From Mycobacterium sp. E796 (GTDB taxonomy: Bacteria > Actinomycetota > Actinomycetes > Mycobacteriales > Mycobacteriaceae): 64,000 nt of DNA. The position numbers and the translations under genes are program-made. The notes under the pieces are model-generated. The model was not told where the DNA came from, made no database searches, and saw nothing but the letters and a program-made list of their open reading frames with translations. Of the stretch, positions 3,064 to 55,849 are shown piece by piece. Every line of letters begins with the position of its first letter. The stretch's first letter is position 1. The stretch covers positions 36,762 to 100,761 of the forward strand of contig NZ_LZKK01000033.1 of the NCBI RefSeq assembly GCF_001672815.1, given 5' to 3'.

Positions 3064-4167
3064 TCAGGACATCGTCGCCGGCGCGGGGGAGCGGTGGTGT
3101 CGAGCTTGGTTTCCGCCGCATCTCTTGGCTTCGTACATGGCGGTGTCGGCATCGGCGACCAGCTGGCGCAGCGCTTGTTCGACGTCGTCGCAGCCCACGC
3201 TGCGCAACGGCAGGGTGGCGGTCCCCACGCTGGCCGTTACCGACGCGGGAATCGCCTCAACCGCTTTGCAGAACTTATGACCCCATCCCCGCGGCCGTTG
3301 TGTCGCGACGACGTCTGCGATCAGGAATTCCTCTCCGCCGACGCGGCCGACGACCGCACTCTCTCGGCACACGGCGGTTATCGCGCGGGCCGCCGCGACG
3401 AGCGCCTCGTCGCCCGCGGCATGTCCTCTGCTGTCGTTGACCGCTTTGAAGCGGTCTAGGTCGACCATCGCCACCGCCAGGAACATGTGGTCGTGGCCGG
3501 CAAGCATCCGGCCGATGATGGCGCGATCGCAGGCGCGCCGATTCAGCAGACCGGTGAGCGGGTCGCGGTCGGCGCGTAACAGATCTACGCCCAGCGCCCG
3601 GACGACGATATGGATAGCGAAGGGCACGATCACGTTGAGTTCGAGAACCAGAAAGTAGCCAGTGAGGGCCAGCGTCGTCTCGCCAGCCATGACCAGGCGA
3701 GCCACCTCGACACCGCCCGCCGCGCCGGCCAGCAAGAAATTCACGACCATATATCGGGCGGTGTGGAAAAACGCGAGGTAACCGCCCGACACGGCCAAGG
3801 CCGAGCATGCCATCAGCGCGACCATCGGCCGGGTCTGCGTCACGCAGCCGATCACGATGCTGGCGCTGCCCGTCATCGCAAAGAAGATCGATTGGCGGCG
3901 CGTGGGCCAGCGGGTCAGCCAGAGCGCCGCCATGACTAGCCCCATCAATCCGGCCAGCACCGACACCGCCAGCGTGAGGCCCGGGAAAAACGGCGTCACT
4001 CCCAACAGGACGTTTGCCGGCCATAAGGCCAGCGATGCCGAAACCCCCGCCATCAGGCGGCGCGTGGGGGTGCTCAGTCCGTGAGCCTGCAGGTAACCAG
4101 TCAGCCAGTCGAAGTGGTCAGGCCGTCGCCACGACGCCGCCAACCAACTCATCGCGAGCCTTCCCAA
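3064..4167 (-). CDS. Membrane-anchored GGDEF protein (probable diguanylate cyclase)
   Basis: A 367-residue protein. The N-terminal half (about residues 40-195) is a run of hydrophobic segments consistent with five or six membrane helices. The C-terminal half is a GGDEF domain with DPLTGLLNRRACD, the metal/substrate segment VDLDRFKAVNDSRGHAAGDEAL and an intact GGEEF signature. Intact GGDEF domains make cyclic di-GMP from two GTP. The usual inhibitory RxxD site five residues before the signature reads RESA, so product inhibition may be absent. The membrane half probably senses a signal. A perfect inverted repeat lies about 70 bp upstream. Two further c-di-GMP proteins are encoded at 20.1-22.6 kb. 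Confidence 0.9.
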   Translation of the reverse strand: MGRLAMSWLAASWRRPDHFDWLTGYLQAHGLSTPTRRLMAGVSASLALWPANVLLGVTPFFPGLTLAVSVLAGLMGLVMAALWLTRWPTRRQSIFFAMTGSASIVIGCVTQTRPMVALMACSALAVSGGYLAFFHTARYMVVNFLLAGAAGGVEVARLVMAGETTLALTGYFLVLELNVIVPFAIHIVVRALGVDLLRADRDPLTGLLNRRACDRAIIGRMLAGHDHMFLAVAMVDLDRFKAVNDSRGHAAGDEALVAAARAITAVCRESAVVGRVGGEEFLIADVVATQRPRGWGHKFCKAVEAIPASVTASVGTATLPLRSVGCDDVEQALRQLVADADTAMYEAKRCGGNQARHHRSPAPATMS

Positions 4168-8668: not shown

Positions 8669-9514
8669 CTACGCGCTCACCGCGGTGATCGTCGCTATCG
8701 CGTCGATCACCGCATCCGGCTGATCAAGGGCGACAAACGTTTTCGCGTCGGGCACCTCGATCAGCTTCGCGCTGCTGAACAACCCGGCCAGGCGCCGGCC
8801 CAGGCCGGGGGTGAAGCAGCGGTCCCGCTGGCCCCACACCAGCGTGACGGGCTTGGTGAACCGGGGGAGCCGGGTGGCAACATCGGTCAGATCGAAGCGC
8901 GCCACGCTACGCGCCAACGCAGCCATGTCGCGGCGGATGCGTGAGTCCTTCAGGCAGGGTTGCAACCAGGCCAAGGTGAGGTCCGGATCGGCTTTGCTGA
9001 CGAGCAGGCCGAACCCTAACAGCGACTGTCGCACCGCGCGGAACCGCAGGGGTTGGGCCAGCGCCTTGATCGAGGCGGGGCCCCGTAGCGCCGCGAACGC
9101 GACGTCGAAGGGGAAGGGCGGGCACTTGTCGAAGGCGTCGCAGTTGGTGAGTACCAGACGGCCAATTCGGTCCGGATGAGCGTCGACGACCAGTTGGCAT
9201 ATTCCACCTCCGGTGTCGCTGCCGACCAGCGTCGCATCGGAGAGGTCGAGGGCGACGAGCGCGTCGTTGACCATCTCGGCAACCCCGGGCAGCGACAGCG
9301 CGGTGGCGTCATTGACCGGGATGGTGTGCGAGCCCAGCGGCCACGTCGGCACGATGCAGCGGAAGCCCCGACGCGCCAGGCCTTCGGCGACATCGCGCCA
9401 CAGTTGCCCGTCGACCAGGATGCCGTGGACGAACAGTACCGGCGGGTGCGGTGAATCCCGCGGTCCGAATTCCTGGTATTCGATCGTGGCCTGGCGAAGT
9501 GCGAGCTGCGGCAT
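8669..9514 (-). CDS. Alpha/beta-hydrolase-fold protein with Asp in the nucleophile elbow
   Basis: A 281-residue single-domain alpha/beta hydrolase fold. VLFVHGILVDGQLW carries the HG oxyanion segment. The nucleophile elbow is VGSDTGGG, which puts Asp at the nucleophile position as in haloalkane dehalogenases and epoxide hydrolases. VWGQRDRCF is the usual acid-loop region. Where a catalytic His is normal, the sequence reads PDAKTFVALDQP, so the His appears to be absent. It may act other than as a standard hydrolase. The ATG at 9514 is preferred over 9562 because GGGAGGAA lies about 10 bases ahead of it. It is transcribed away from the secreted repeat protein at 9865. Confidence 0.85.
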   Translation of the reverse strand: MPQLALRQATIEYQEFGPRDSPHPPVLFVHGILVDGQLWRDVAEGLARRGFRCIVPTWPLGSHTIPVNDATALSLPGVAEMVNDALVALDLSDATLVGSDTGGGICQLVVDAHPDRIGRLVLTNCDAFDKCPPFPFDVAFAALRGPASIKALAQPLRFRAVRQSLLGFGLLVSKADPDLTLAWLQPCLKDSRIRRDMAALARSVARFDLTDVATRLPRFTKPVTLVWGQRDRCFTPGLGRRLAGLFSSAKLIEVPDAKTFVALDQPDAVIDAIATITAVSA

Positions 9515-11408: not shown

Positions 11409-12257
11409 TCAGCGGTCGCCCACGCGGGGATCGATGAGAGCGTTGAACTCGGCCACGCTGTACACGCCATCGAGATAGTTGAACGACCCGCTGTCGAGCA
11501 CCTCACGCGCGGCACGGACGACGGCGGTCAGCGCTGCGCGGCAAAACGAGGTCCCGATAGTCACCCTGCGCACCCCGAATTCCTTGAGCTCGGCGACGGT
11601 GAAACGGGCCGGCCCGATGCCGGCAACGTAGTTGAGTGGCTTCGAAACGCTGCTGCACGCGAGGCGAAGGGCCGCTTCGTCGGGAATGCCGGGCGCGTAA
11701 AGCACGTCGGCGCCGGCGGCTTCGAAGGCCTGAAGACGTGACAGCGTGTCTTCGAGGTCGGGTCGGCCGCGGATGAAGTTCTCGCAGCGAGCCGTCAGGG
11801 TGAAGGGGTACGGCAGGGACCGCGCCGCCTCCGCGGCGGCCTCGATTCGTTCGATCGCCAGTTCGCGTTCGAAGATCGGGTCGTCAGGCCGGTACGTCGC
11901 GTCTTCGATCGAGGCTCCCGCCAGGCCGACGTTGCCCGCGAGACGCACCGTCTCTGCCACGGTCTCGGGCGACGCTCCGAAACCGTTCTCCAAATCCGCA
12001 GTCACCGGCAACGACGTCGCGTCGACGATGGTGCGCACATGCTCGAGGGTTTCGCTCCTGCTGACCGCGCCATCGCCATCGCGCCGACCCAACGAAAACG
12101 CCAGTCCCGCACTGGTAGTCGCCAGTCCCTGAAATCCGAGGTTGGCGAACAACCGTGCGGTGCCAACGTCCCAGGGATTTGGGAGCACCAGCATCTCGTC
12201 GCCGTCGTGTAGCTGACGGAACCGTTCGCCACGCTGGGCCAGAGCTGCGCTGTCCAT
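11409..12257 (-). CDS. Isocitrate lyase/PEP mutase superfamily enzyme
   Basis: A 282-residue TIM-barrel protein. LVLPNPWDVGTARLFANLGFQGLATTSAG, the metal-binding region VTADLENGFG, GASIEDATY and LTARCENFIRG are typical of the PEP mutase/2-methylisocitrate lyase group. The members closest in plan are small mycobacterial proteins of the Rv1998c type, whose substrate is not established. They could be C-C or C-P lyases acting on 2-oxo- or hydroxy-acids. It starts 78 bp from the divergent DUF167 gene. Confidence 0.85.
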   Translation of the reverse strand: MDSAALAQRGERFRQLHDGDEMLVLPNPWDVGTARLFANLGFQGLATTSAGLAFSLGRRDGDGAVSRSETLEHVRTIVDATSLPVTADLENGFGASPETVAETVRLAGNVGLAGASIEDATYRPDDPIFERELAIERIEAAAEAARSLPYPFTLTARCENFIRGRPDLEDTLSRLQAFEAAGADVLYAPGIPDEAALRLACSSVSKPLNYVAGIGPARFTVAELKEFGVRRVTIGTSFCRAALTAVVRAAREVLDSGSFNYLDGVYSVAEFNALIDPRVGDR

Positions 12258-20062: not shown

Positions 20063-21352
20063 GTGAATGTGGAGAGCCTGGTGCGGTCACTGGCCGCGTC
20101 GATGGACCCAGTGTCTTTGATGGGACGCATTGCTGAGCAGGCTTGCGCGTTTATGCAGAAAGCCGATGGAGCGGCCGTCACGCTGCTTCGCGCCTCTGAT
20201 AACGCTTACGTGACCGTTTCCGGATACGGTGTCCTAGCCACTACGCCGGGTTTTGTGGTGCCCAGACAGAGCAGTATTCAGGGCGTCGCGGCGCGGGAAA
20301 AACACCCAAAGCTGATAGACGATGCCCTGGTAGATCGACGACTATCGGCACGTGTTCGGGCGATGAACAAGCAGTGGGGGACCCGCTCGTGGGCGGCGAT
20401 ACCCCTGATGTACAACGACCACGCCATCGGTTCGCTGCTGCTGGCCGCGACGGCCCCCGGCGCGTTCACCGAAACAGATGTCGACGCGATGCTGGCTATC
20501 AGTGAATTCGTCTCCGCTGTGATCGGCTCTCAGTCACAACTGTCCACCCTGCTGACCCACGTAATGACCGATTGCGCCGATCGCGGGCAACGCGCCCTAA
20601 CGGCGCGATTCATCGCCTCGGTGATGTTGCCCGAGGCAGCCGAAACTGAGGGCTTGCGAGGCCAACTCGACGCACTGTTGTCCGAGCCGAACGCTCTCAG
20701 CGCGGCTTTTCAACCCATCGTCCATTTGGTGAGCGGCACGACGTTCGCCTACGAAGGGTTGATCCGCTTTCCCGCGTCGCCTGAGTTGACCCCGTCGCAA
20801 TGGTTCAGCGTTGCCCGGCGCCTGGGCCGAGGTATCGAATTAGAACATGTCGCGCTGTGCACCATCCTGAGCGCTGCTCACGGCATCCCCAGCGACAGTC
20901 CAGTCGCCGTCAACCTGAGCCCGAGCGCCGCGCTCGAGCCAGGGATTCAAGATGTGCTTACAGCCCAGGACCGGGCGTTGGTCGTGGAAATCACTGAGCA
21001 CGAACCGTTCCCCGACGACCTCGGCCCGAGCCTGAGGCAGCTGCGCGATCGCGGGATACGTGTGGCGGTCGACGACGCCGGCGCCGGATATGCCAGCTTC
21101 ACCCAACTGCTGCGATTACATCCGGACATCATCAAGATCGACGGAGAGTTGATCATCGGCATCGACAACGATCCCGTCAAACGTGCGTTGGCGACCGCAC
21201 TCAACTCGCTGGCCTCCGAGCTCCACGCAAAATTGGTGGCCGAGGCAGTTGAGACACCCAGCGAGCTCCAGACGCTGATTCGTCTCGGCATCGAATACGG
21301 CCAAGGCATTCACCTTGGGGCGCCTCAACCGGGCGCTCGCACGCCGGTATAA
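20063..21352 (+). CDS. GAF-EAL protein (probable cyclic di-GMP phosphodiesterase)
   Basis: A 429-residue protein. A GAF sensor domain covers about residues 10-160 (ACAFMQKADGAAVTLLRA, RSWAAIPLMYNDHAIGSLLLA) and an EAL domain residues 180-420. The signature reads YEGLIRF (EGL instead of EAL, tolerated by many active members). Further motifs are AVNLSPSA, VEITEHEP, VDDAGAGYASF, IIKIDGELI and VAEAVE, so the catalytic acids and Lys are present. It would hydrolyse c-di-GMP under control of the GAF ligand. It starts with GTG 20063. A GGDEF gene follows 100 bp downstream, making an opposing pair. Confidence 0.9.
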   Translation: MNVESLVRSLAASMDPVSLMGRIAEQACAFMQKADGAAVTLLRASDNAYVTVSGYGVLATTPGFVVPRQSSIQGVAAREKHPKLIDDALVDRRLSARVRAMNKQWGTRSWAAIPLMYNDHAIGSLLLAATAPGAFTETDVDAMLAISEFVSAVIGSQSQLSTLLTHVMTDCADRGQRALTARFIASVMLPEAAETEGLRGQLDALLSEPNALSAAFQPIVHLVSGTTFAYEGLIRFPASPELTPSQWFSVARRLGRGIELEHVALCTILSAAHGIPSDSPVAVNLSPSAALEPGIQDVLTAQDRALVVEITEHEPFPDDLGPSLRQLRDRGIRVAVDDAGAGYASFTQLLRLHPDIIKIDGELIIGIDNDPVKRALATALNSLASELHAKLVAEAVETPSELQTLIRLGIEYGQGIHLGAPQPGARTPV

Positions 21353-21452: not shown

Positions 21453-22598
21453 ATGGCTTCGCTGGCCGAGTCCAGAAGTTTCGCGGTGTTTCGAGGTCTT
21501 GTCGGTGAATGGTGGAATTCACCGGTCGACTACGCCGCGCAGGTGCAGTACTTCGCCAAACGGTCGATGGCCGAGGCCATCCGAGTAATGATCGGGGTGG
21601 GTAACGGGCTGACGGTCATGACTGCCCTGGCGATTCTTCTGCCCTGGGCCGGCCCGGATCGTCTCGTATCTCGGGTCGTCGTGGCATCGTTCGCGGTCCT
21701 GGTGATGTTCTGGGTGATCCGGTGGTGTTCTCGGCCATGGCCGACGTTGCCGGTGTCGCGCGCGTTCGTCATCTCCTGCGACATCGGCATCGCCACGCTG
21801 GCGTTGTACGAACCAACGTGGCTCGCGGGCCTGTACGGGTTCAACGCGTTTACGCAACTCTCGGTCTATCTGCTGTTCTTTGACGGACCGAGATTCCTTG
21901 CGCTGCATACCCTGTGGATCTTCGCGTCGACGGCGGTGTTTGCCGTGCGGGCGGCTGCGGACGCACACTTTGACGGTTTGGTCTTCGCCGCCAGCATCCT
22001 CGCCGTGACGACACCAGTCCTTGCCGCACCGGTGGGAATCCAGTTCGGGATCCGGACGCTGCGCAATGACGCCAACGAGTCGGTCACCGATCCGCTGACC
22101 GGTCTACTCAACAGGCGGGGTCTGCACCTCCACTTCGCCGAGTTGTTGAGCGACCATCATCCCTCGGGCAGGCACCTGGCCGTGATGGTCGCCGACCTCG
22201 ACCGCTTTAAAAACATCAACGACACCTTTGGCCATCCGATCGGCGATGACGTCTTGATCCGCACTGCTCGGCAGATCGAATCCGCCGTGCGCGGCAGCGC
22301 ATTAGTGGCCCGCTTCGGGGGAGAAGAATTCGTCGTCATCGAGGTCAGCGATCCCGGCCACATAGAACAAACTGCTGAACGAGTCAGGTGTGCGGTAGCC
22401 GAACCGGCCGATCACGCTCAAGTCACCGCCAGCATCGGCGTCACTCACGTCGAACTCGGCTTCTTCACAGCACCAGAGGCCGACCCGATGGCCCTCCTCG
22501 ACGCCGTCCTTAGTCGAGCCGACCAAGCGATGCTCGATGCGAAACGCAAGGGCGGCAACATCACCGTCTTCACAACGCCTGTCGATCAAGACATTTGA
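21453..22598 (+). CDS. Membrane GGDEF protein (probable diguanylate cyclase)
   Basis: A 381-residue protein. Six or so hydrophobic segments occupy residues about 45-195, then a GGDEF domain: SVTDPLTGLLNRRGLHLHF, VADLDRFKNINDTFGHPIGDDVL and an intact RFGGEEFVV. The active-site residues for making c-di-GMP are present. The I-site position reads RGSA rather than RxxD, as in the protein at 3064-4167. The two share architecture and are likely paralogues. GAGGAGG lies 12 bases upstream of the ATG. It pairs with the upstream EAL gene. Confidence 0.92.
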   Translation: MASLAESRSFAVFRGLVGEWWNSPVDYAAQVQYFAKRSMAEAIRVMIGVGNGLTVMTALAILLPWAGPDRLVSRVVVASFAVLVMFWVIRWCSRPWPTLPVSRAFVISCDIGIATLALYEPTWLAGLYGFNAFTQLSVYLLFFDGPRFLALHTLWIFASTAVFAVRAAADAHFDGLVFAASILAVTTPVLAAPVGIQFGIRTLRNDANESVTDPLTGLLNRRGLHLHFAELLSDHHPSGRHLAVMVADLDRFKNINDTFGHPIGDDVLIRTARQIESAVRGSALVARFGGEEFVVIEVSDPGHIEQTAERVRCAVAEPADHAQVTASIGVTHVELGFFTAPEADPMALLDAVLSRADQAMLDAKRKGGNITVFTTPVDQDI

Positions 22599-23441: not shown

Positions 23442-23615
23442 AGTCGCAGAACGCTACTCCGCTGCCGCGGTCGACGAAAAGCGTGTTGCCGCTCACCATG
23501 CTGCACTGTTCGCGACGAAGAACGGGTTTCCGGCGATGCTTGCATGAATGGCGCGCGCAGCGTCGCCCCTCTACGTTTGCAGACACATCCAGTTGCGCAA
23601 ATCGGGGGAGGAACC

Positions 23616-28965: not shown

Positions 28966-29418
28966 GATCGGTTGGTGCACCGGCCGGAGTCGGTTGGGGG
29001 ATGGGCTAAGCGGTGCTATCTCGCTGCGCGCGTCGCGATGGAAAATGCTCTGCGGCCGTATGGCCTCGGCGCCACCCAGTGGTACGTGCTGTATCAACTC
29101 GCGAACGTGGGTCCCACCATGCAGCGCGAACTGCAGTCGATACTGCAGGTAGAACGAGCAACGTTGAGCGTTGTTGTCGGCTCCCTGGTGCGAAAACAAC
29201 TCGTCGAGCAAGTGCCAGACCGGGTCGATCAGCGACAAAAACTTCTTCGGCTGACCTCTGCAGGAACCAAACTCTGGAATGACCTGCCCGACTTGACGCA
29301 GATCCACGCGGTGGCTTTTGACGGCATCGACCACGCCGAAATCGCAACTGCAGTAAAGGTTTTGCGGACTGCTACCGAGCGTCTCGAGCTTCTGTCGCGA
29401 GAAAGGAATGACGGATGA
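28957..29418 (+). CDS. MarR-family transcriptional regulator
   Basis: A 153-residue winged-helix regulator. YLAARVAMENALRPYGLGATQWYVLYQLANVGPTMQRELQSILQVERATLSVVVGSLVRKQLVEQ is the MarR DNA-binding core. VPDRVDQRQKLLRLTSAGTKL provides the wing with the D-x-R-x3 pattern. It probably represses itself and the coupled epimerase gene. Its TGA overlaps the next ATG (ATGA). The effector is unknown. Confidence 0.9.
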   Translation: MANDRLVHRPESVGGWAKRCYLAARVAMENALRPYGLGATQWYVLYQLANVGPTMQRELQSILQVERATLSVVVGSLVRKQLVEQVPDRVDQRQKLLRLTSAGTKLWNDLPDLTQIHAVAFDGIDHAEIATAVKVLRTATERLELLSRERNDG

Positions 29419-30230
29419 CCGTGTTGGTTACTGGGGCGACCGGTTTGGTTGGGGCGCGCCTTCTCCCGCGGCTGGTCGACGACGGTGTGGATTGCCGCGC
29501 CCTGGTACGCGAGGGGAGCACGGTTCCCGACGGTGTGACGCCCGCGTGGGGCGACCTTTTGCAGCCTGAGTCGCTCGCGCCCGCAATGGAAAACGTCTCG
29601 GCGGTCATCCATCTGGCCGCGGTATTCCGGACCAACGACACCGACTTGATTTGGAAGGCCAATCTGGTCGGCTCACGTAACCTCATCGCCGCAACGCGGA
29701 CGCACGCGCCGCGAGCTCGTTTCATCATGGCAAGCACCGGCCAGGTCTACGACCACGACAGCCCACATCCGGGTCGCGAAAACGATGCGGCCGAACCGAA
29801 GCTGGCTTATCCCGCGAGCAAGCTGGCGGCCGAGAACGAACTACGCAGCAGCGGCCTCACATGGTCGATCCACCGGTATGGCTTCGTCTACGGCGATCAG
29901 GACGGACACCTGCAGTCGCTGTCCGAGCTCGCCGCGAACGCCTCTTTTCACCCAGCGCAGAGAATGAGCATGGTGCACCATCGCGACATCGCGACCGCAA
30001 CCAAACTTGCCTTGGCCGGCGCACTGGACGGACGCATTGTGAACATCGTTGATGAGGCTCCGACTTCGATTTACGAACTCGTCCAACTCATCGGCGGTGC
30101 GATGCGACCCTCATCGCAACCCTTGGAAAACCCTTGGCGACTTCACATGGACGGGACGCTGGCGCGTCACCTGGGCTTCCAACCCGCTGTGCGCACCGTG
30201 TACCAAGCCGCGCAAGAAAACTCGCTCTGA
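29415..30230 (+). CDS. NAD(P)-dependent epimerase/dehydratase (extended SDR)
   Basis: A 271-residue extended short-chain dehydrogenase. The N-terminal TVLVTGATGLVGARLL has the GxxGxxG nucleotide site. VIHLAAVFR, IMASTGQVYD and the catalytic YPASK (in KLAYPASKLAAE) are present. The family acts on nucleotide sugars, sterols or other carbonyl compounds. It overlaps the MarR gene and is probably its regulated target. Confidence 0.87.
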   Translation: MTVLVTGATGLVGARLLPRLVDDGVDCRALVREGSTVPDGVTPAWGDLLQPESLAPAMENVSAVIHLAAVFRTNDTDLIWKANLVGSRNLIAATRTHAPRARFIMASTGQVYDHDSPHPGRENDAAEPKLAYPASKLAAENELRSSGLTWSIHRYGFVYGDQDGHLQSLSELAANASFHPAQRMSMVHHRDIATATKLALAGALDGRIVNIVDEAPTSIYELVQLIGGAMRPSSQPLENPWRLHMDGTLARHLGFQPAVRTVYQAAQENSL

Positions 30231-30387
30231 CGCCCGCGGAACGTCGCCATCCCGTACGTCGAACGAATTGCTCTTGACGGTGACGCAAGAGATAGAGACC
30301 GGTACAGGCCCAAGGTCGTCGCGCTGCAGCGGGGGGAGGCCGGCACGGGAGACGGAACAAGCCAAGCACACGGTCGCGCTCCGCTCA

Positions 30388-30415
30388 ACCTGACATAATG
30401 TCGCTTATCGGTAAA
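30388..30415 (-). other. dif-like XerCD recombination site
   Basis: Read on the minus strand, the 28 bases are an 11-bp left arm TTTACCGATAA, a 6-bp centre GCGACA and an 11-bp right arm TTATGTCAGGT. From memory, the actinobacterial dif consensus has TT--CCGATAA, a 6-bp centre and TTATGTCAAGT, giving agreement at about 24 of 28 positions. TTATGT is the most conserved XerD-arm core across bacteria. The site lies in an 800-bp gene-free region. That and the nearby terminus-type genes (fabG3, PEP-mutase-like) fit the chromosome-dimer resolution site. It could instead be an attachment site for an element that exploits XerCD. Confidence 0.65.
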
Positions 30416-30659
30416 ACGCTCAGCAGGAGACTTCGAGACGGGCCGCCTGTACTGCACAATTGGCCCGGAGCGCCCACAACCGCGGCCGCTCACCATCGCC
30501 CCGACCCATTAGTTCGTACATGGGTGCTCGGCACATCGGACCCGAGCCGACGGCTCAATCGATGAAACGTGATGGCGCCGACTCGGCGCTCCGCCGCGGT
30601 CGGCCAACCCAGTGCGGCGACCCGGAAGCCCTTCTTTCCCCTTCCGCCCTACCTCAGTG

Positions 30660-30677
30660 ATACGTCACAGTGACGAA
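30660..30677. repeat. Palindrome copy 1 (CGTCAC-A-GTGACG)
   Basis: A perfect 13-bp palindrome (30663-30675) with flanks giving ATACGTCACAGTGACGAA. It recurs with one central change at 30951-30968, in the same orientation, 291 bp away. No gene lies between. It could be paired operators, protein-binding sites for chromosome organisation, or ends of a lost element. Confidence 0.55.
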
Positions 30678-30950
30678 ATGGTCTGTCGCGCAGTGTTAAT
30701 GATGCACCGCATTGGACGGACAGAACTCCGCCGAGGACCGTCGCTGCTACGAAGCCGCTGACGGGAAAGACCATTCGGCGCCCCGCCAACGCTCAATGCG
30801 ACGACAACACTTCTCGGTGCTTGAAAGCCACCCGCTTGCCGGACCGGCTCACCGCCACCGTCTGGTGCTCCGTAATCCACCCCCACAATCAGGATTTCCC
30901 GCTCAGCACCATCGCCGCGGCAACCAGGCGCGGTCCGTGCGCCATGGACA

Positions 30951-30968
30951 ATACGTCACTGTGACGAA
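30951..30968. repeat. Palindrome copy 2 (CGTCAC-T-GTGACG)
   Basis: This matches copy 1 at 17 of 18 positions, differing only at the central base. It lies about 65 bp beyond the 3' end of the Doc-like toxin gene. Confidence 0.55.
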
Positions 30969-31032
30969 TCGCCATGCCGCGCAAGTCCTTTGGGCGTTTC
31001 GGGTACCGTCTGCTCGCTAAGAAATGCCGCAG

Positions 31033-31413
31033 CTACGAAGCGGCGTACGAAGCCAGCTTTTCAGCGATGATGTTGACCGACATGGTCCCATCCGTCGCGA
31101 CAGCGTTGACGAACTCCTCGGCGTCGTCGACGTCAAACTCACCCAGTTGGATTCCGTTGATGTACAAGAAAGTCCATGCCGACGCCCAAGCGGTGCGCTT
31201 GTTGCCATCGGCAAGCGCGTGGTTGCGCGCGAGCGATTGCATCAGCGCGGCCGCCTTGGAAAGGTGGTCGGGGTACGCGTCAATGCCGAAGACGGTTGTG
31301 CGAGGCCTCGCAACGGCCGCGTCGAGAAGCCCGTAATCGCTCACCGTGAGGACCTCTCCGACAGCCGCCGCGCCGGCGGTGAGGATGTCATCGCGGTCGA
31401 GAAATTCGGTCAC
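31033..31413 (-). CDS. Doc-like (Fic-fold) toxin
   Basis: A 126-residue protein of the Doc group of the Fic fold. The active-site motif reads [13 protein letters not shown], keeping His, Gly-Asn-Lys-Arg. [20 protein letters not shown] precedes it. Doc toxins phosphorylate elongation factor Tu and stop translation. Its ATG overlaps the stop of the antitoxin by 4 bp. It lies next to the gene-free dif-like region. Confidence 0.88.
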
Positions 31414-35095: not shown

Positions 35096-35602
35096 ATGAA
35101 TGTCGACCGGCACGTCAAGCCGCCTTTCGAGGTGGTTGTTGCTCGACACGGCGCCACGGTGTGGCGAGTTGTTCGCGCGGTGATCGGCCAGGTCGACGCC
35201 GATGACGCCTGGTCGGACACGTTCCTGGCCGCGTTGAAGGCCTACCCGCAGTTGCCGGCCGACGCCAATGTCGAAGCGTGGCTGGTGACCATCGCCCACC
35301 GTAAGGCCATCGACATCACGCGGGGGGCCGCGCGGCGTGCTGTCCCCGTCGCCGATCCCCCCGACTCCCCCGCTCGCGAACGGGCCGACGCCCACGATCT
35401 CGACCTGGACGCCGCGGTCGGCGCGCTGCCGCCCAAACAGCGCCAGGCCGTTGCCTACCACTATCTGGCCGGCCTGCCCTACGCCGAGGTCGCGGCGATC
35501 CTCGACAGTAGCGTCGACGCCGCCCGCCGGGCCGCCGCCGACGGTATCGCCACCCTCCGCCGCACCTATCCCCGTATCAATACGACAAGGAATCACCAAT
35601 GA
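35096..35602 (+). CDS. ECF-family RNA polymerase sigma factor
   Basis: A 168-residue sigma factor of minimal ECF size. Region 2 is VVARHGATVWRVVRAVIGQVDADDAWSDTFLAALKAYPQ with EAWLVTIAHRKAIDITR. Region 4 is LDAAVGALPPKQRQAVAYHYLAGLPYAEVAAILDSSVDAARRAAADGIATLRR. No extra C-terminal domain and no anti-sigma gene next to it. It overlaps the downstream Ogt-like gene by 4 bp. That coupling suggests the sigma factor drives alkylation-repair genes and that a repair protein may replace the anti-sigma factor as sensor. GGAGG lies 13 bases upstream of the ATG. Confidence 0.87.
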   Translation: MNVDRHVKPPFEVVVARHGATVWRVVRAVIGQVDADDAWSDTFLAALKAYPQLPADANVEAWLVTIAHRKAIDITRGAARRAVPVADPPDSPARERADAHDLDLDAAVGALPPKQRQAVAYHYLAGLPYAEVAAILDSSVDAARRAAADGIATLRRTYPRINTTRNHQ

Positions 35603-36821: not shown

Positions 36822-38185
36822 CGATTTCGCGACGAATCAAGCGGCGACCAGTGCACCACCTTCGTGGCGGTCATCTCGTCGAGCAGCTCCGGACCGAAGC
36901 CGAAGCCGGTGCCGCTGGCCCTGCGGGGCTCGGACGCTCCCCCGGGGGCGCCCCCGAACACGTTGTTGATCTTGACGGTGCCGACCGGCAGGCTGCGCCA
37001 CGCCTCCTGCGCATGCGCCATGTCGCCGGTCAGCACGGTGGCGGCCAAGCCGAAGCGGTCGTCGGCAGCCTCGGCCAGTGCCGCGGCAAAATCCGGCACC
37101 ATCCGCACCGGCGCGATCGGACCGAACGTTTCCTCGCGCAGCACCAGCATGTCCGGCGCGCAGTCCGTCAGCACGGTCGGCGGATAGAACGAACCCGGTC
37201 CCGGCTGCGGTTCGCCGCCCGCCAGGACGTGGGCGCCGCGCCGCACCGCGTCCTCGACGTGGGCGTGCACGTGCTCGCGGTGGCGCTGGTCGACCAACGG
37301 CCCGATCCGATCAGCCCACACCAACGCCTCGTCGACCAACGCATCGACGAACGCCTCGGCGATCGGCTGGACGACATAGACCCGCTCCACCGACACACAG
37401 ATCTGACCCGCGTTGGCGAAGGCGCCGAGCGCCGCCTGGCTGGCCGCCCAGCGGGGGTCGACGTCCGCGTCGACGATCAGGGCGTCGTTTCCACCGTTCT
37501 CCAGCAGCGCCTTGGCGCCGCGTTCCACGCAGGCCCGGGCGATCTCCCGGCCGGTCGCGCTGCTGCCGACATGCGCGACCACGTCGACGCCCTCCGCCTC
37601 GGCCAACCGCGCACCGACCGTCCCGTCGCCGTCAACGATTTCGAGCACCCCCTCGGGCAGCCGCGCGGCCAGGAGTTCGGCGAACCGCCGACCGGTCCCG
37701 GGGCAGCGCTCACTGGGCTTGTGAACCACGGTGTTTCCGGCGACGAGCGCCGCGCCGAGCAGTCCGGCGGCCACCGCGACGGGGTCGTTCCAGGGCGTGA
37801 GCACCGCGACGACACCGCGCGGCTGTGGAACCATCAGATCGGTTGCCGACCAATCGCCCTGCAGGCTGCGCCCGCGATGCAATGGACCGAGTTGCGCGTA
37901 CTGCAACAGGGTGCCCACTCCGGCCTCCACGCCGCCGCGAGCATCGTCGCGCAGTTTCCCGGTTTCCCGCTCGTTCAGTTCGGCGAGTTCGTCGGCGGCG
38001 CCGCGGACGTCGGCCGCGGCCGCCGCGATCGCCTCGGCCCGCTCGGCGGGCGCCGTGCGCGCCCAGCCGGCGGTGGCATCCGCGGCGCGCCGGACCGCAT
38101 CGTCGCAGTCCGACGGCTCGGTGATGGGCACCTGCGTCACCTGGTCGCCGGTGCGAGGATCCAGGACGTTGATGACCTTGGTCAT
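36818..38185 (-). CDS. Aldehyde dehydrogenase
   Basis: A 455-residue NAD(P)-dependent aldehyde dehydrogenase. VAVLTPWNDPVAVAAGLLGAALVAGNTVVHKPSE is the cofactor entry. VVAHVGSSATGREIA is the Rossmann turn, LLENGGNDALIVD carries the catalytic Glu and GAFANAGQICVSVERVYV the catalytic Cys. LREETFGPIAPVR and GTVKINNVFGGAPGG follow as expected. It oxidises an aldehyde to the acid; the exact substrate is not clear (the type includes succinate-semialdehyde dehydrogenases). An ATG at 38197 is the alternative start. It converges with the Ada-like gene and is divergent from the esterase. Confidence 0.92.
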   Translation of the reverse strand: MTKVINVLDPRTGDQVTQVPITEPSDCDDAVRRAADATAGWARTAPAERAEAIAAAAADVRGAADELAELNERETGKLRDDARGGVEAGVGTLLQYAQLGPLHRGRSLQGDWSATDLMVPQPRGVVAVLTPWNDPVAVAAGLLGAALVAGNTVVHKPSERCPGTGRRFAELLAARLPEGVLEIVDGDGTVGARLAEAEGVDVVAHVGSSATGREIARACVERGAKALLENGGNDALIVDADVDPRWAASQAALGAFANAGQICVSVERVYVVQPIAEAFVDALVDEALVWADRIGPLVDQRHREHVHAHVEDAVRRGAHVLAGGEPQPGPGSFYPPTVLTDCAPDMLVLREETFGPIAPVRMVPDFAAALAEAADDRFGLAATVLTGDMAHAQEAWRSLPVGTVKINNVFGGAPGGASEPRRASGTGFGFGPELLDEMTATKVVHWSPLDSSRNR

Positions 38186-43443: not shown

Positions 43444-44226
43444 CTACGTCACCCACTCCGGCTGCTGGCTGGCGTCGACCACGGAGAAGTCCTTGTGTGC
43501 CAGGCCCGCGGTGGTGCCGCCGTCGACCACGAACTCCGAGCCGGTCGAGTAGCTGGACTCGTCGCTGGCCAGATACACGACGAGACTGGACACCTCCTTC
43601 GGCTCGCCGATCCGGCCCACCGCGGTATTGAAGATGTCCTCGGGAACCCATTCGGTCATCGGCGTCTTGATCAGCCCGGGATGGATCGAGTTGACGCGGA
43701 TCCCGCTGGGCCCCAGTTCCAGCGCGGCCGACTTCGTCAACCCGCGGACCGCGAATTTGGTTGCGGTGTACCCATGGCAACCGATGGTGCCGGCCATGCC
43801 CTCGATCGAGGAGATGTTGATGATCGATCCCCGTCCCGCTTCCTTCATGGGTTTCACCACGGCGCGGATGCCGAGGAACACTCCCGTCAGGTTGATGTCG
43901 AGGATGCGGTGCCACTCCGAGAGCTCGTAATCCTCGAACGTGCCGATGTTGATGATGCCGGCGTTGTTCACCAAGACATCGACCCCGCCGAACTCGGTGA
44001 CGGCGGTGGCCACCGCGGCTTCCCACTGTTCGGGTTTGGTGACGTCCAGATGCACGTAGCGAACGGTGTCGCCGAGCTCCGCCGCGACTGCCTTGCCCTC
44101 GTCGTCGAGGATGTCGCCGAACACGACCTTGGCGCCTTCCGCGACCAGGGTCCGCACATGCGAAGCACCCATCCCCCGAGCCCCGCCGCTGACGAGCGCA
44201 ACCTTCCCCGCCAACCGTTCTGCCAC
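43444..44226 (-). CDS. fabG3: Short-chain dehydrogenase FabG3 (20-beta-hydroxysteroid dehydrogenase type)
   Basis: A 260-residue classical SDR very close to M. tuberculosis FabG3 (Rv2002) as I recall it, including GKVALVSGGARGMGASHVR, AEGAKVVFGDILDDEGKAVA and the C-terminal AGLAHKDFSVVDASQQPEWV. The NAD site is TGxxxGxG-like (SGGARGMG). The catalytic residues are in NAG, INISSIEG and YTATK. Rv2002 reduces 20-oxo-steroids with NADH. GTG 44226 was chosen for the AGGAGA site and the matching length. It converges on mmpL with a 13-bp gap. Confidence 0.92.
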   Translation of the reverse strand: MAERLAGKVALVSGGARGMGASHVRTLVAEGAKVVFGDILDDEGKAVAAELGDTVRYVHLDVTKPEQWEAAVATAVTEFGGVDVLVNNAGIINIGTFEDYELSEWHRILDINLTGVFLGIRAVVKPMKEAGRGSIINISSIEGMAGTIGCHGYTATKFAVRGLTKSAALELGPSGIRVNSIHPGLIKTPMTEWVPEDIFNTAVGRIGEPKEVSSLVVYLASDESSYSTGSEFVVDGGTTAGLAHKDFSVVDASQQPEWVT

Positions 44227-44252
44227 TGTGCATCTCCTGTCGTGCCGGTACG

Positions 44253-44272
44253 TTTTTTGCACCATACAGACG
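44253..44272 (-). promoter_or_regulatory. Sequence shared between fabG3 and mmpS promoters
   Basis: TTTTTTGCAC followed by CATACAGACG, about 25 bp upstream of fabG3. The same two blocks occur at the mmpS promoter with 11 extra bases between them, and there they form part of a palindrome. It may be a half-operator for the TetR at 39240. Confidence 0.4.
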
Positions 44273-44338
44273 CTCACAGGTGTGTGACCAGGGCTTCGAC
44301 GCGTCGCGATCCCCGCAGTCGCGACCCGACGTGCGCCG

Positions 44339-55294: not shown

Positions 55295-55849
55295 AACGCG
55301 TTGCGCGGGAGCCAAGTTCGCCGATAGTCGGCGTGGACGCGCACCGCTGAGCCGGCTGCGCCGGCAAGTCGCCATGCAACACAAAAAGCCCTGGTAAAAC
55401 CGGGCGTTCGGCGGATAGCGCACTTTGTTTTGGGCGAAAGCGGGCGAGTTTTGCAATTTATTGACCGCACGTACGGTCTAATGCGATAGTTGCATCGTGG
55501 CGCAAACGATGGCGGCGTGGGGCCGGAGGGCGGGGATCCGGGCCGTCGCCTGGGAGGACCACGGTGTCCGCCCGCACCTCGAACGGCGTGGTGCGCGACG
55601 CCGGGGGTCGCCCCGAGCACCGTTGGGCCGGATCGTGACGCTCGGCGGTCGGCAAGCGTCATCATTCAAGCCGTCATCGAAATGCCTTATGTCACATATG
55701 TTTCTGTGGCATGACCGCTCTACGGGCACGGTTGCGAGTCGGAACGACGCCGGCCGGCTCCGCCTCTCCCCCGCGCCGCCGCGTCGCTCACGTGACCGGC
55801 CGGCTAAAGAGCCACAATCCCTTACGCATCCGCCCCGCGGGCCGCGCCG
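55295..55849. other. 555-bp region between TetR and the mce operon
   Basis: It contains the operator-like palindrome at 55463-55478 and, beyond it, about 370 bp before yrbEA. A GATAGT box (55485-55490) lies 6 bases before a GTG at 55497, and a strong GGGAGG precedes a GTG at 55563 that opens a 24-codon frame. Neither frame resembles a known protein. The stretch may be a long leader or the remains of a first gene. Confidence 0.4.
55463..55478. promoter_or_regulatory. Operator-like palindrome upstream of the yrbE/mce operon
   Basis: GACCGCACGTACGGTC has perfect GACCG/CGGTC arms. It is related to the site at the TetR promoter (54589-54604). A GATAGT box follows at 55485. It probably lies on the promoter of the mce operon. 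Confidence 0.65.

Follow-up and report, generated by a model that had tools for sequence, protein, structure and literature searches.

The probable dif site of Mycobacterium sp. E796 and a palindromic box kept on its XerC-arm side

Introduction

The genome of Mycobacterium sp. E796 contains, in a region without genes, a 28-mer that a first-pass annotation, made from the letters alone, had proposed as the dif site of the chromosome. The site lies on contig NZ_LZKK01000033.1, in a stretch of 64,000 nucleotides, bases 36762-100761 of that contig, that was analysed as a whole and is called here the window. XerC, XerD and FtsK are commonly regarded as sufficient for chromosomal dif; the locus raises the question of whether the 28-mer is such a site and, if so, whether it stands alone. 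The answer developed below is that the 28-mer appears to be an ordinary mycobacterial dif, and that what is new is a palindromic companion, hereafter the box, together with the occurrence of this box at dif-like sites of plasmids and a second place that it takes beside parB.

The 28-mer and its surroundings

Read on the minus strand, the 28-mer is TTTACCGATAA-GCGACA-TTATGTCAGGT, that is, exactly the two 11-bp arms around a 6-bp centre that had been described. By analogy with E. coli dif, we take the left arm to be that of XerC and the right arm that of XerD. The site and its borders comprise the following features.

30388..30415, minus strand: dif core site, 28 bp (11-6-11); exact sequence, single in the genome, genus-wide pattern
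30405..30415, minus strand: left arm TTTACCGATAA, XerC-type by analogy with E. coli dif
30399..30404, minus strand: central hexamer GCGACA
30388..30398, minus strand: right arm TTATGTCAGGT, XerD-type; conserved TTATGTCA across the genus matches
29415-30230, plus strand: NAD-dependent epimerase-like gene, left border of the gene-free stretch
31033-31413, minus strand: Fic/Doc-like gene, right border of the gene-free stretch

The gene-free stretch itself, put earlier at 800 bp, measures 802 bp (30231-31032), and the two genes that had been cited as neighbours typical of a terminus are both found in the window: a PEP-mutase-type gene (11409-12257, minus strand) and an SDR/FabG-type gene (43444-44277, minus strand). 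The Fic/Doc-like gene at the right border is probably half of a toxin-antitoxin pair. Elsewhere in the window, a GAF-EAL gene (20063-21352) is followed by a GGDEF gene (21453-22598), both on the plus strand, and the pair resembles those of cyclic-di-GMP turnover.

The source genome is a 6.53 Mb draft of 380 contigs, 99.99% complete, in which the contig carrying the site is 100.8 kb long. A search of the whole genome returned a single match to the 28-mer with up to 3 mismatches, and the reversed control returned 0. The agreement with the actinobacterial consensus, put in the first-pass annotation at about 24 of 28 positions, was about right: the 28-mer shares 20 of 28 positions with the dif of Frankia alni and 26 of 28 with TTTGCCGATAAGCGACATTATGTCAAGT, a form frequent in the genus among the dif matches listed. 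The reference sites of E. coli and F. alni, GGTGCGCATAATGTATATTATGTTAAAT and CACGCCGATAATGCACATTATGTCAAGT, respectively, are those given in a passage of PMC3025954.

Conservation extends well beyond this strain. When up to 2 mismatches are allowed, 136 of 148 genomes of the genus contain the pattern TTNNCCGATAAN6TTATGTCARNT (reversed control, 0/148), as do 129 of the 136 genus genomes with at least 90% completeness and at most 5% contamination; the conserved core is CCGATAA-N6-TTATGTCA, set in the 28-bp, 11-6-11 layout. Of the family genomes, 107 of 121 have similar patterns, as have 67 of 81 of the order, and the ten named records with the exact arm pattern all belong to Mycobacterium or Mycolicibacter. 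The position opposite the origin was measured in 22 relatives with a chromosome-size contig, the source genome being a draft: in these, dif lies at 0.436-0.562 of the chromosome from dnaA, with a mean of 0.504. As for the recombination machinery, the source genome encodes an XerD-type ORF (TIGR02225, 340.6 bits against a cut-off of 329.6), an XerC-type ORF whose best match, TIGR02224, scores 319.6 bits, slightly below the cut-off of 335.15, and one FtsK gamma domain.

Polar octamers and GC skew

The polarity of FtsK-type sequences, which had been suggested as a check, switches as anticipated: in the source contig, the octamer CGGGGGAG points toward the 28-mer 11 times and away from it once (p = 0.003). 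The nearest copies flank the 28-mer at 6.8 kb on the left and 5.0 kb on the right, both pointing inward. The copies that point toward dif in the window are the following.

3084..3091, plus strand: CGGGGGAG
8862..8869, plus strand: CGGGGGAG
22316..22323, plus strand: CGGGGGAG
23603..23610, plus strand: CGGGGGAG, last copy on the left side
35365..35372, minus strand: CGGGGGAG, first copy on the right side
36937..36944, minus strand: CGGGGGAG
55766..55773, minus strand: CGGGGGAG

In a relative, G084, the same octamer counts 34 copies toward dif and 0 away over 200 kb on each side, and it is the most polar octamer among those with at least 25 occurrences; in a second relative, G091, the ratio is 45:0 and it again ranks at the top. 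These counts suggest that CGGGGGAG guides FtsK in mycobacteria. Octamers of the form (T/C)GGGGGAG are reported as architecture-imparting for Corynebacterium in a passage of PMC3022926. As in that case, GGGGGAG points to dif on both arms here; the difference is that the present counts come from mycobacteria, with ratios for the 7-mer of 57:0 and 74:0 in the two relatives and of 18:3 in the source contig. The E. coli-type sequence GGGNAGGG was also tried as a polar guide and was set aside, being mildly polar only (33:17, 37:14, 10:3). Most of the others among the 15 most polar octamers of G084 are not polar in the source contig, such as CGGGGCAG (1:3) and GGTGCTGG (6:17).

The GC skew, which had been named as a further indicator, agrees in part. 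Within the window, the cumulative skew peaks at 29551, at a distance of 0.8 kb from dif; taken over the full 100.8 kb contig, its maximum is displaced by 49.6 kb, and the displacement in G084 is 112 kb. With maxima so far off, GC skew was rejected as too weak a proof of the terminus. The skew is 0.009 on the left of dif and -0.020 on the right in the window (p = 0.01 by permutation of 1-kb blocks), and the drop at dif over the whole contig has a p of 0.045 with 5-kb blocks.

Assignment as chromosomal dif

The dif-site reading is thus upheld: the single copy, the conservation in the genus, the position opposite dnaA in relatives and the convergence of the octamers, together with the XerC-type, XerD and FtsK gamma genes, point to an ordinary XerCD dif site, and on sequence grounds the 28-mer at 30388-30415 is very likely the dif site of this chromosome, at which chromosome dimers would be split. 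XerCD recombination would accordingly be expected to take place at the 28-mer itself. In M. smegmatis, dif-flanked genes are excised by the endogenous XerCD, according to a passage of PMC4789726; PMC12327846 deals with the control of the xerC promoter and not with the flanks of dif.

That the 28-mer may instead be a dif-like site derived from a plasmid or a phage has some ground in the genus, where 20 of 148 genomes contain more than one dif match. The 20 further dif-like sites that were fetched, which have other central hexamers, lie on contigs of 3-473 kb in 17 cases, on one of 735 kb in one and on chromosomes in two, although a small contig in a draft genome is no proof of a plasmid. However, the centre GCGACA is a chromosomal form, which several relatives, G142, G006 and G104 among them, have in the middle of the chromosome; moreover, the 28-mer is the sole copy in the source genome, which speaks against a plasmid or phage origin, the polarity switch of the source contig falls at this place, and no match to the stretch extending from dif to the box was found in collections of plasmids and phages. 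A mobile origin is thus most improbable.

A palindromic box beside dif

The gene-free stretch also holds two copies of CGTCAC[A/T]GTGACG, neither of which is mentioned in the first-pass annotation; each copy is included in one unit of an imperfect direct repeat.

30663..30675, no strand: proximal box, the palindrome CGTCACAGTGACG; 254 bp separate its centre from the XerC-arm end of dif
30954..30966, no strand: distal box, the palindrome CGTCACTGTGACG; 545 bp separate its centre from the XerC-arm end of dif
30660..30763, plus strand: direct repeat copy 1 (imperfect, about 100 bp), holding the proximal box; spacing 286-291 bp
30951..31049, plus strand: direct repeat copy 2 (imperfect, about 100 bp), holding the distal box

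Across loci the palindrome is CGTCACWGTGACG, with an extended form CAATTCGTCACWGTGACGWATTG, and its usual place is 220-330 bp from dif, on the side of the XerC arm; the extended consensus was derived from 60 dif-linked copies, secondary sites included. The presence of 2 such palindromes (up to 1 mismatch) in the window is unremarkable, as shuffled sequences contain 0.84 on average and 21 of 100 shuffles reach 2; the case for the box rests, therefore, on the comparison between loci. The source genome contains 8 exact CGTCACNGTGACG palindromes, 3 of which have an A/T centre, and 2 of these 3 are the boxes of the window.

The comparison started from 30 loci of the genus dif search and 20 more from the same search, arranged in sets of different size. 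In the set of 54 mycobacterial loci, L017 (short XerC-arm flank), L031 (the same site as L046) and L203 (the same as L065, an odd-centred site of G101) were dropped, and a further 4, of 58, were skipped as short or duplicate; in this set, 48 of 54 loci have the core of the box (GTCACNGTGAC or CGTCAN3TGACG) no farther than 700 bp from dif on the XerC-arm side, compared with 0 of 54 on the other side. When 53 loci with 1 kb on both sides were collapsed to 47 non-redundant ones, exact CGTCACNGTGACG was found within 1 kb on the XerC-arm side in 43 and on the other side in none, compared with 1 match in 9400 shuffled control sequences. Allowing one mismatch, the same 47 loci give 44 on the XerC-arm side versus 2 on the other, and a one-mismatch box is seen on the other side in 5 loci of a wider set of 59, from which L017 and L031 were dropped and in which L203 was kept, as one of the 8 loci of 59 devoid of the box.

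The distance is also conserved: the centre of the box is 218-329 bp from dif in 42 of the 50 loci that have a box within 1 kb, and the spacing between the boxes of loci with a pair of them is 161-326 bp in 13 of 14 cases. Three loci that lack a box within 1 kb (L013, L014 and L196) have one at 1.0-1.8 kb, and two genomes of 3.27 Mb, G114 and G074, show CGTCAN3TGACG with one mismatch at -296 and -300. No convincing helical phasing between box and dif was obtained, the best of the 5 periods tried giving p = 0.009. The DNA that surrounds the box is poorly conserved, since the XerC-arm side could not be aligned in 922 of 1081 locus pairs; where local alignments do exist on this side, 292 of 386 (pairs counted both ways) cover a box, and the 3 loci whose XerC-arm flank aligns to no other include an exact box in one. 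On the opposite side of dif, the word GATGAATC recurs in 14 of 57 mycobacterial loci, no more than 150 bp outside the XerD arm, and is almost never expected from shuffles; it is possibly limited to one clade.

The orientation of dif relative to dnaA is the same in 10 and opposite in 12 of 22 genomes, and nonetheless an exact A/T-centred box is found within 2 kb on the XerC-arm side in 20 of the 22 and on the other side in 0. The side of the box is constant in both orientations, which indicates that the box moves together with dif and belongs to neither chromosome arm in particular. The 22 chromosomes (119.8 Mb, from 22 of the 30 genomes, with 7 copies on small contigs left out) contain 55 A/T-centred copies, of which 30 are within 2 kb on the XerC-arm side and 0 on the other; of the remaining ones, the XerC-arm side has 1 at 2-10 kb and 7 at 10-200 kb, the other side has 1 at 10-200 kb, and 16 are more distant.

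Copies of the box beside parB

The box recurs at a second place, upstream of the dnaA C-terminal domain at a distance of about 7 kb, where it is exact in L072, L075, L076 and L082. In L076 it occupies the gap between parB, with parA adjoining, and a GNAT-type gene of the same direction; ParB and ParA were confirmed by Pfam, and the ORF layout is the same in L075 and L082. In these three loci (L075, L076 and L082) the box is 173-197 bp upstream of the GNAT-type gene, which is presumably Rv3916c in M. tuberculosis. A sample of 20 further genomes, taken by the distance from the dnaA C-terminal domain, contains a box with up to 1 mismatch to CGTCACNGTGACG at the 7 kb place in 19, the exception being G114.

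The longer word GTCACNGTGACGWAWT is almost confined to these two places: in 12 genomes, 27 of its 28 exact matches (24 of 25 distinct sites) fall either to the XerC-arm side, at distances from dif of up to 149 kb, or in the parB-side region, and the 1 remaining match adjoins dnaA. In the source genome this holds for 3 of 3 exact matches. One of the 19 copies, TGTCACAGTGACGTAATT, with one mismatch, is at G000:C257:37551-37563 (L204:552), again some 7 kb upstream of the dnaA C-terminal domain, in the region that corresponds to the parB-GNAT gap of L076; in another genome, an exact extended box (G083:C1:1752767) and the start of the match to the dnaA C-terminal domain are about 350 bp apart.

The product of the GNAT-type gene, for which searches of Pfam and NCBIfam gave no confident domain match, was considered as the protein that binds the box. 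A profile built on three mycobacterial sequences gave no match in 5 of 5 genomes of families f16 and f3, which have the box at dif, although such a search would miss a very diverged homologue, and it matched 4 of 4 genomes of f15, 2 of 2 of f12 and 2 of 2 of f5, families devoid of the box; this distribution, opposite to that of the box, makes the GNAT-type gene a disfavoured candidate.

Taxonomic distribution and plasmids

Outside the genus, the box is found at the same place in 15 of 24 cases from other genera of the family (f1) and in other families of the order, namely f16 (8/8, often as CGTCAN3TGACG only), f14 (4/8), f4 (2/5) and f3 (2/3). It was not found in genus g3 (0/4), nor in families f2, f5, f7, f9, f10, f11, f12 and f15 (0/25 together), and a rough search of the families without the box revealed no other shared palindrome at equal distance from dif.

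The box accompanies secondary dif-like sites as well: within 700 bp it is present on the XerC-arm side in 13 of 18 and on the other side in 1 of 18, in a set that skips L052 and L061 (short flanks; both with a box) and includes the chromosomal L064 and L065, both without a box. The dif-like sites with other central hexamers that are located on small contigs or on named mycobacterial plasmids (L046-L063, L288 and L289) mostly have the box on the XerC-arm side. Among named plasmids, pMSPYR101 of M. gilvum Spyr1 has the box at -324 from its dif-like site and a plasmid of M. vanbaalenii JOB5 has it at -323 from a degenerate one; in a plasmid of M. arabiense (L290) the dif-like site is very degenerate and the box is on the other side. 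The dif-like sites on two plasmids of Gordonia, one of Rhodococcus and one of Cellulosimicrobium show no box within 1.5 kb.

Some contigs from other genera of the family (G186:C8, G248:C10, G220:C99/C101, G235:C35 and G182:C12) contain several dif-like sites each, and recall the pdif modules of Acinetobacter plasmids. On the chromosome G135:C1, dif-type sites of equal orientation occur at 3223256 and 3311460 (L064), 88 kb from each other, the second with a weak XerC arm; the pair possibly marks an element integrated at dif.

Comparison with known systems

Like other chromosomal XerCD dif sites, the site described here has 28 bp in an 11-6-11 arrangement, conserved inner bases, a single copy, a terminus position and XerC-type, XerD and FtsK gamma partners; it differs from them in the conserved palindromic box that is placed on the XerC-arm side at a near-fixed distance, and the passages of the dif literature examined contain no description of an accessory palindrome at dif. 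Accessory DNA is instead well known in the plasmid sites cer (ColE1) and psi (pSC101), where it adjoins the core on the XerC side at no more than a few hundred bp, is occupied by ArgR, ArcA and PepA, proteins that are otherwise regulators, and is strictly required for recombination. The likeness to cer and psi, at the level of sequence, consists of a conserved element on the XerC side at a near-fixed distance; here, however, the site is chromosomal, the distance is somewhat longer and the centre has 6 bp. Furthermore, the consensus of the box appears unlike the ARG box of the ArgR-dependent cer-type sites.

The matS site of gamma-proteobacteria, that of MatP, has the sequence GTGACRNYGTCAC and occurs in many copies on both sides of dif. 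The box shares with it the nature of a 13-bp palindrome at the terminus with GTGAC half-sites; in contrast to matS, the order of the half-sites is opposite (GTGAC first in matS, GTCAC-N-GTGAC in the box), the box is one-sided and mostly one or two copies are found near dif, where matS sites are spread through a broad Ter region. Identity with matS was rejected, given the reversed half-sites and the count of 0 in 54 loci for a box within 700 bp on the XerD side.

Possible role of the box

Considering dif and box together, it is fairly probable that the two constitute, with the box about 250 bp out on the XerC-arm side, a larger conserved unit, and that a predicted dimeric protein assists or regulates recombination there. 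A homodimeric DNA-binding protein would occupy the box on the XerC-arm side and, once bound, might shape or gate the synapsis of two copies of dif; the box would then be an accessory or anchoring site, laid out much as the accessory DNA of Xer sites on plasmids, and may have been retained by the plasmids of these hosts along with their own dif-like sites. The binding of a protein to the box is thus a prediction, as is its effect on Xer recombination. For Proteobacteria, it is argued in a passage of PMC2731167 that dif sites with a 6-bp centre need no accessory elements; this, with the excision of dif cassettes described in part of PMC4789726 for M. smegmatis, speaks for a box that modulates or anchors and is not essential, and if the excision constructs of the latter study carried no box, the box would not be essential for excision.

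Other readings start from the place of the box near parB, which fits a general regulator or a segregation factor as well as an Xer accessory factor. If dif is plain, the box may be a general site of segregation or terminus organisation, with a MatP-like role, that marks the parB and dif ends. This would agree with the box-like site that 19 of 20 further genomes have upstream of the dnaA C-terminal domain, some 7 kb away, with the 27 of 28 exact GTCACNGTGACGWAWT matches (12 genomes) located at the XerC-arm side of dif or in the parB region, and with the copies at 10-200 kb from dif, 7 on the XerC-arm side versus 1. A terminus organiser, however, is expected on both sides of dif, while the box is one-sided and flips with dif; its presence at secondary dif-like sites argues against a pure segregation mark, and no exact box was seen among the fetched f14 and f4 loci of the GNAT-type gene, though members of these families do have the box at dif. 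Overall, we regard this reading as rather unlikely.

Palindromes of this size are typical operators, and the box might likewise be an operator or promoter element for transcription of a gene or small RNA adjacent to dif. The copy 173-197 bp upstream of the GNAT-type gene in L075, L076 and L082 is in keeping with such a function, as is the mention, in a passage of PMC8562490, of a promoter and a putative non-coding RNA for Rv3916c. At dif, however, the XerC-arm-side DNA is unalignable between most species, so that no common target gene is apparent, and the spacing of the box is held relative to dif; an operator function is therefore considered improbable. Even less can be said for the box as a replication fork barrier or as an FtsK-related polar sequence of one arm: its location at the terminus is where a fork barrier would lie, but it is palindromic and lies toward either arm depending on the orientation of dif (10 versus 12 genomes), and a separate polar motif, CGGGGGAG, already behaves as an FtsK guide should, which renders this role very unlikely.

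The preferred reading thus remains that of a conserved unit of dif and box on which a dimeric protein would act. A more specific form of it, in which one and the same dimeric protein binds a palindrome of 13-23 bp both by parB and by dif, gates Xer recombination from the side of the XerC arm and has passed, along with dif, to plasmids that borrowed both, is offered as a tentative and somewhat doubtful proposal.

Conclusions

In the portions of the open-access literature searched, no description was found of the box, of its occurrence at plasmid dif-like sites or of its parB-side copy. Kept in several families of one order and tied to one arm of dif, the box may point to a missing component of dimer resolution in mycobacteria. 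It would provide a direct bait for finding the protein that binds it, and box and dif together could serve as a landmark of the terminus in draft mycobacterial genomes.
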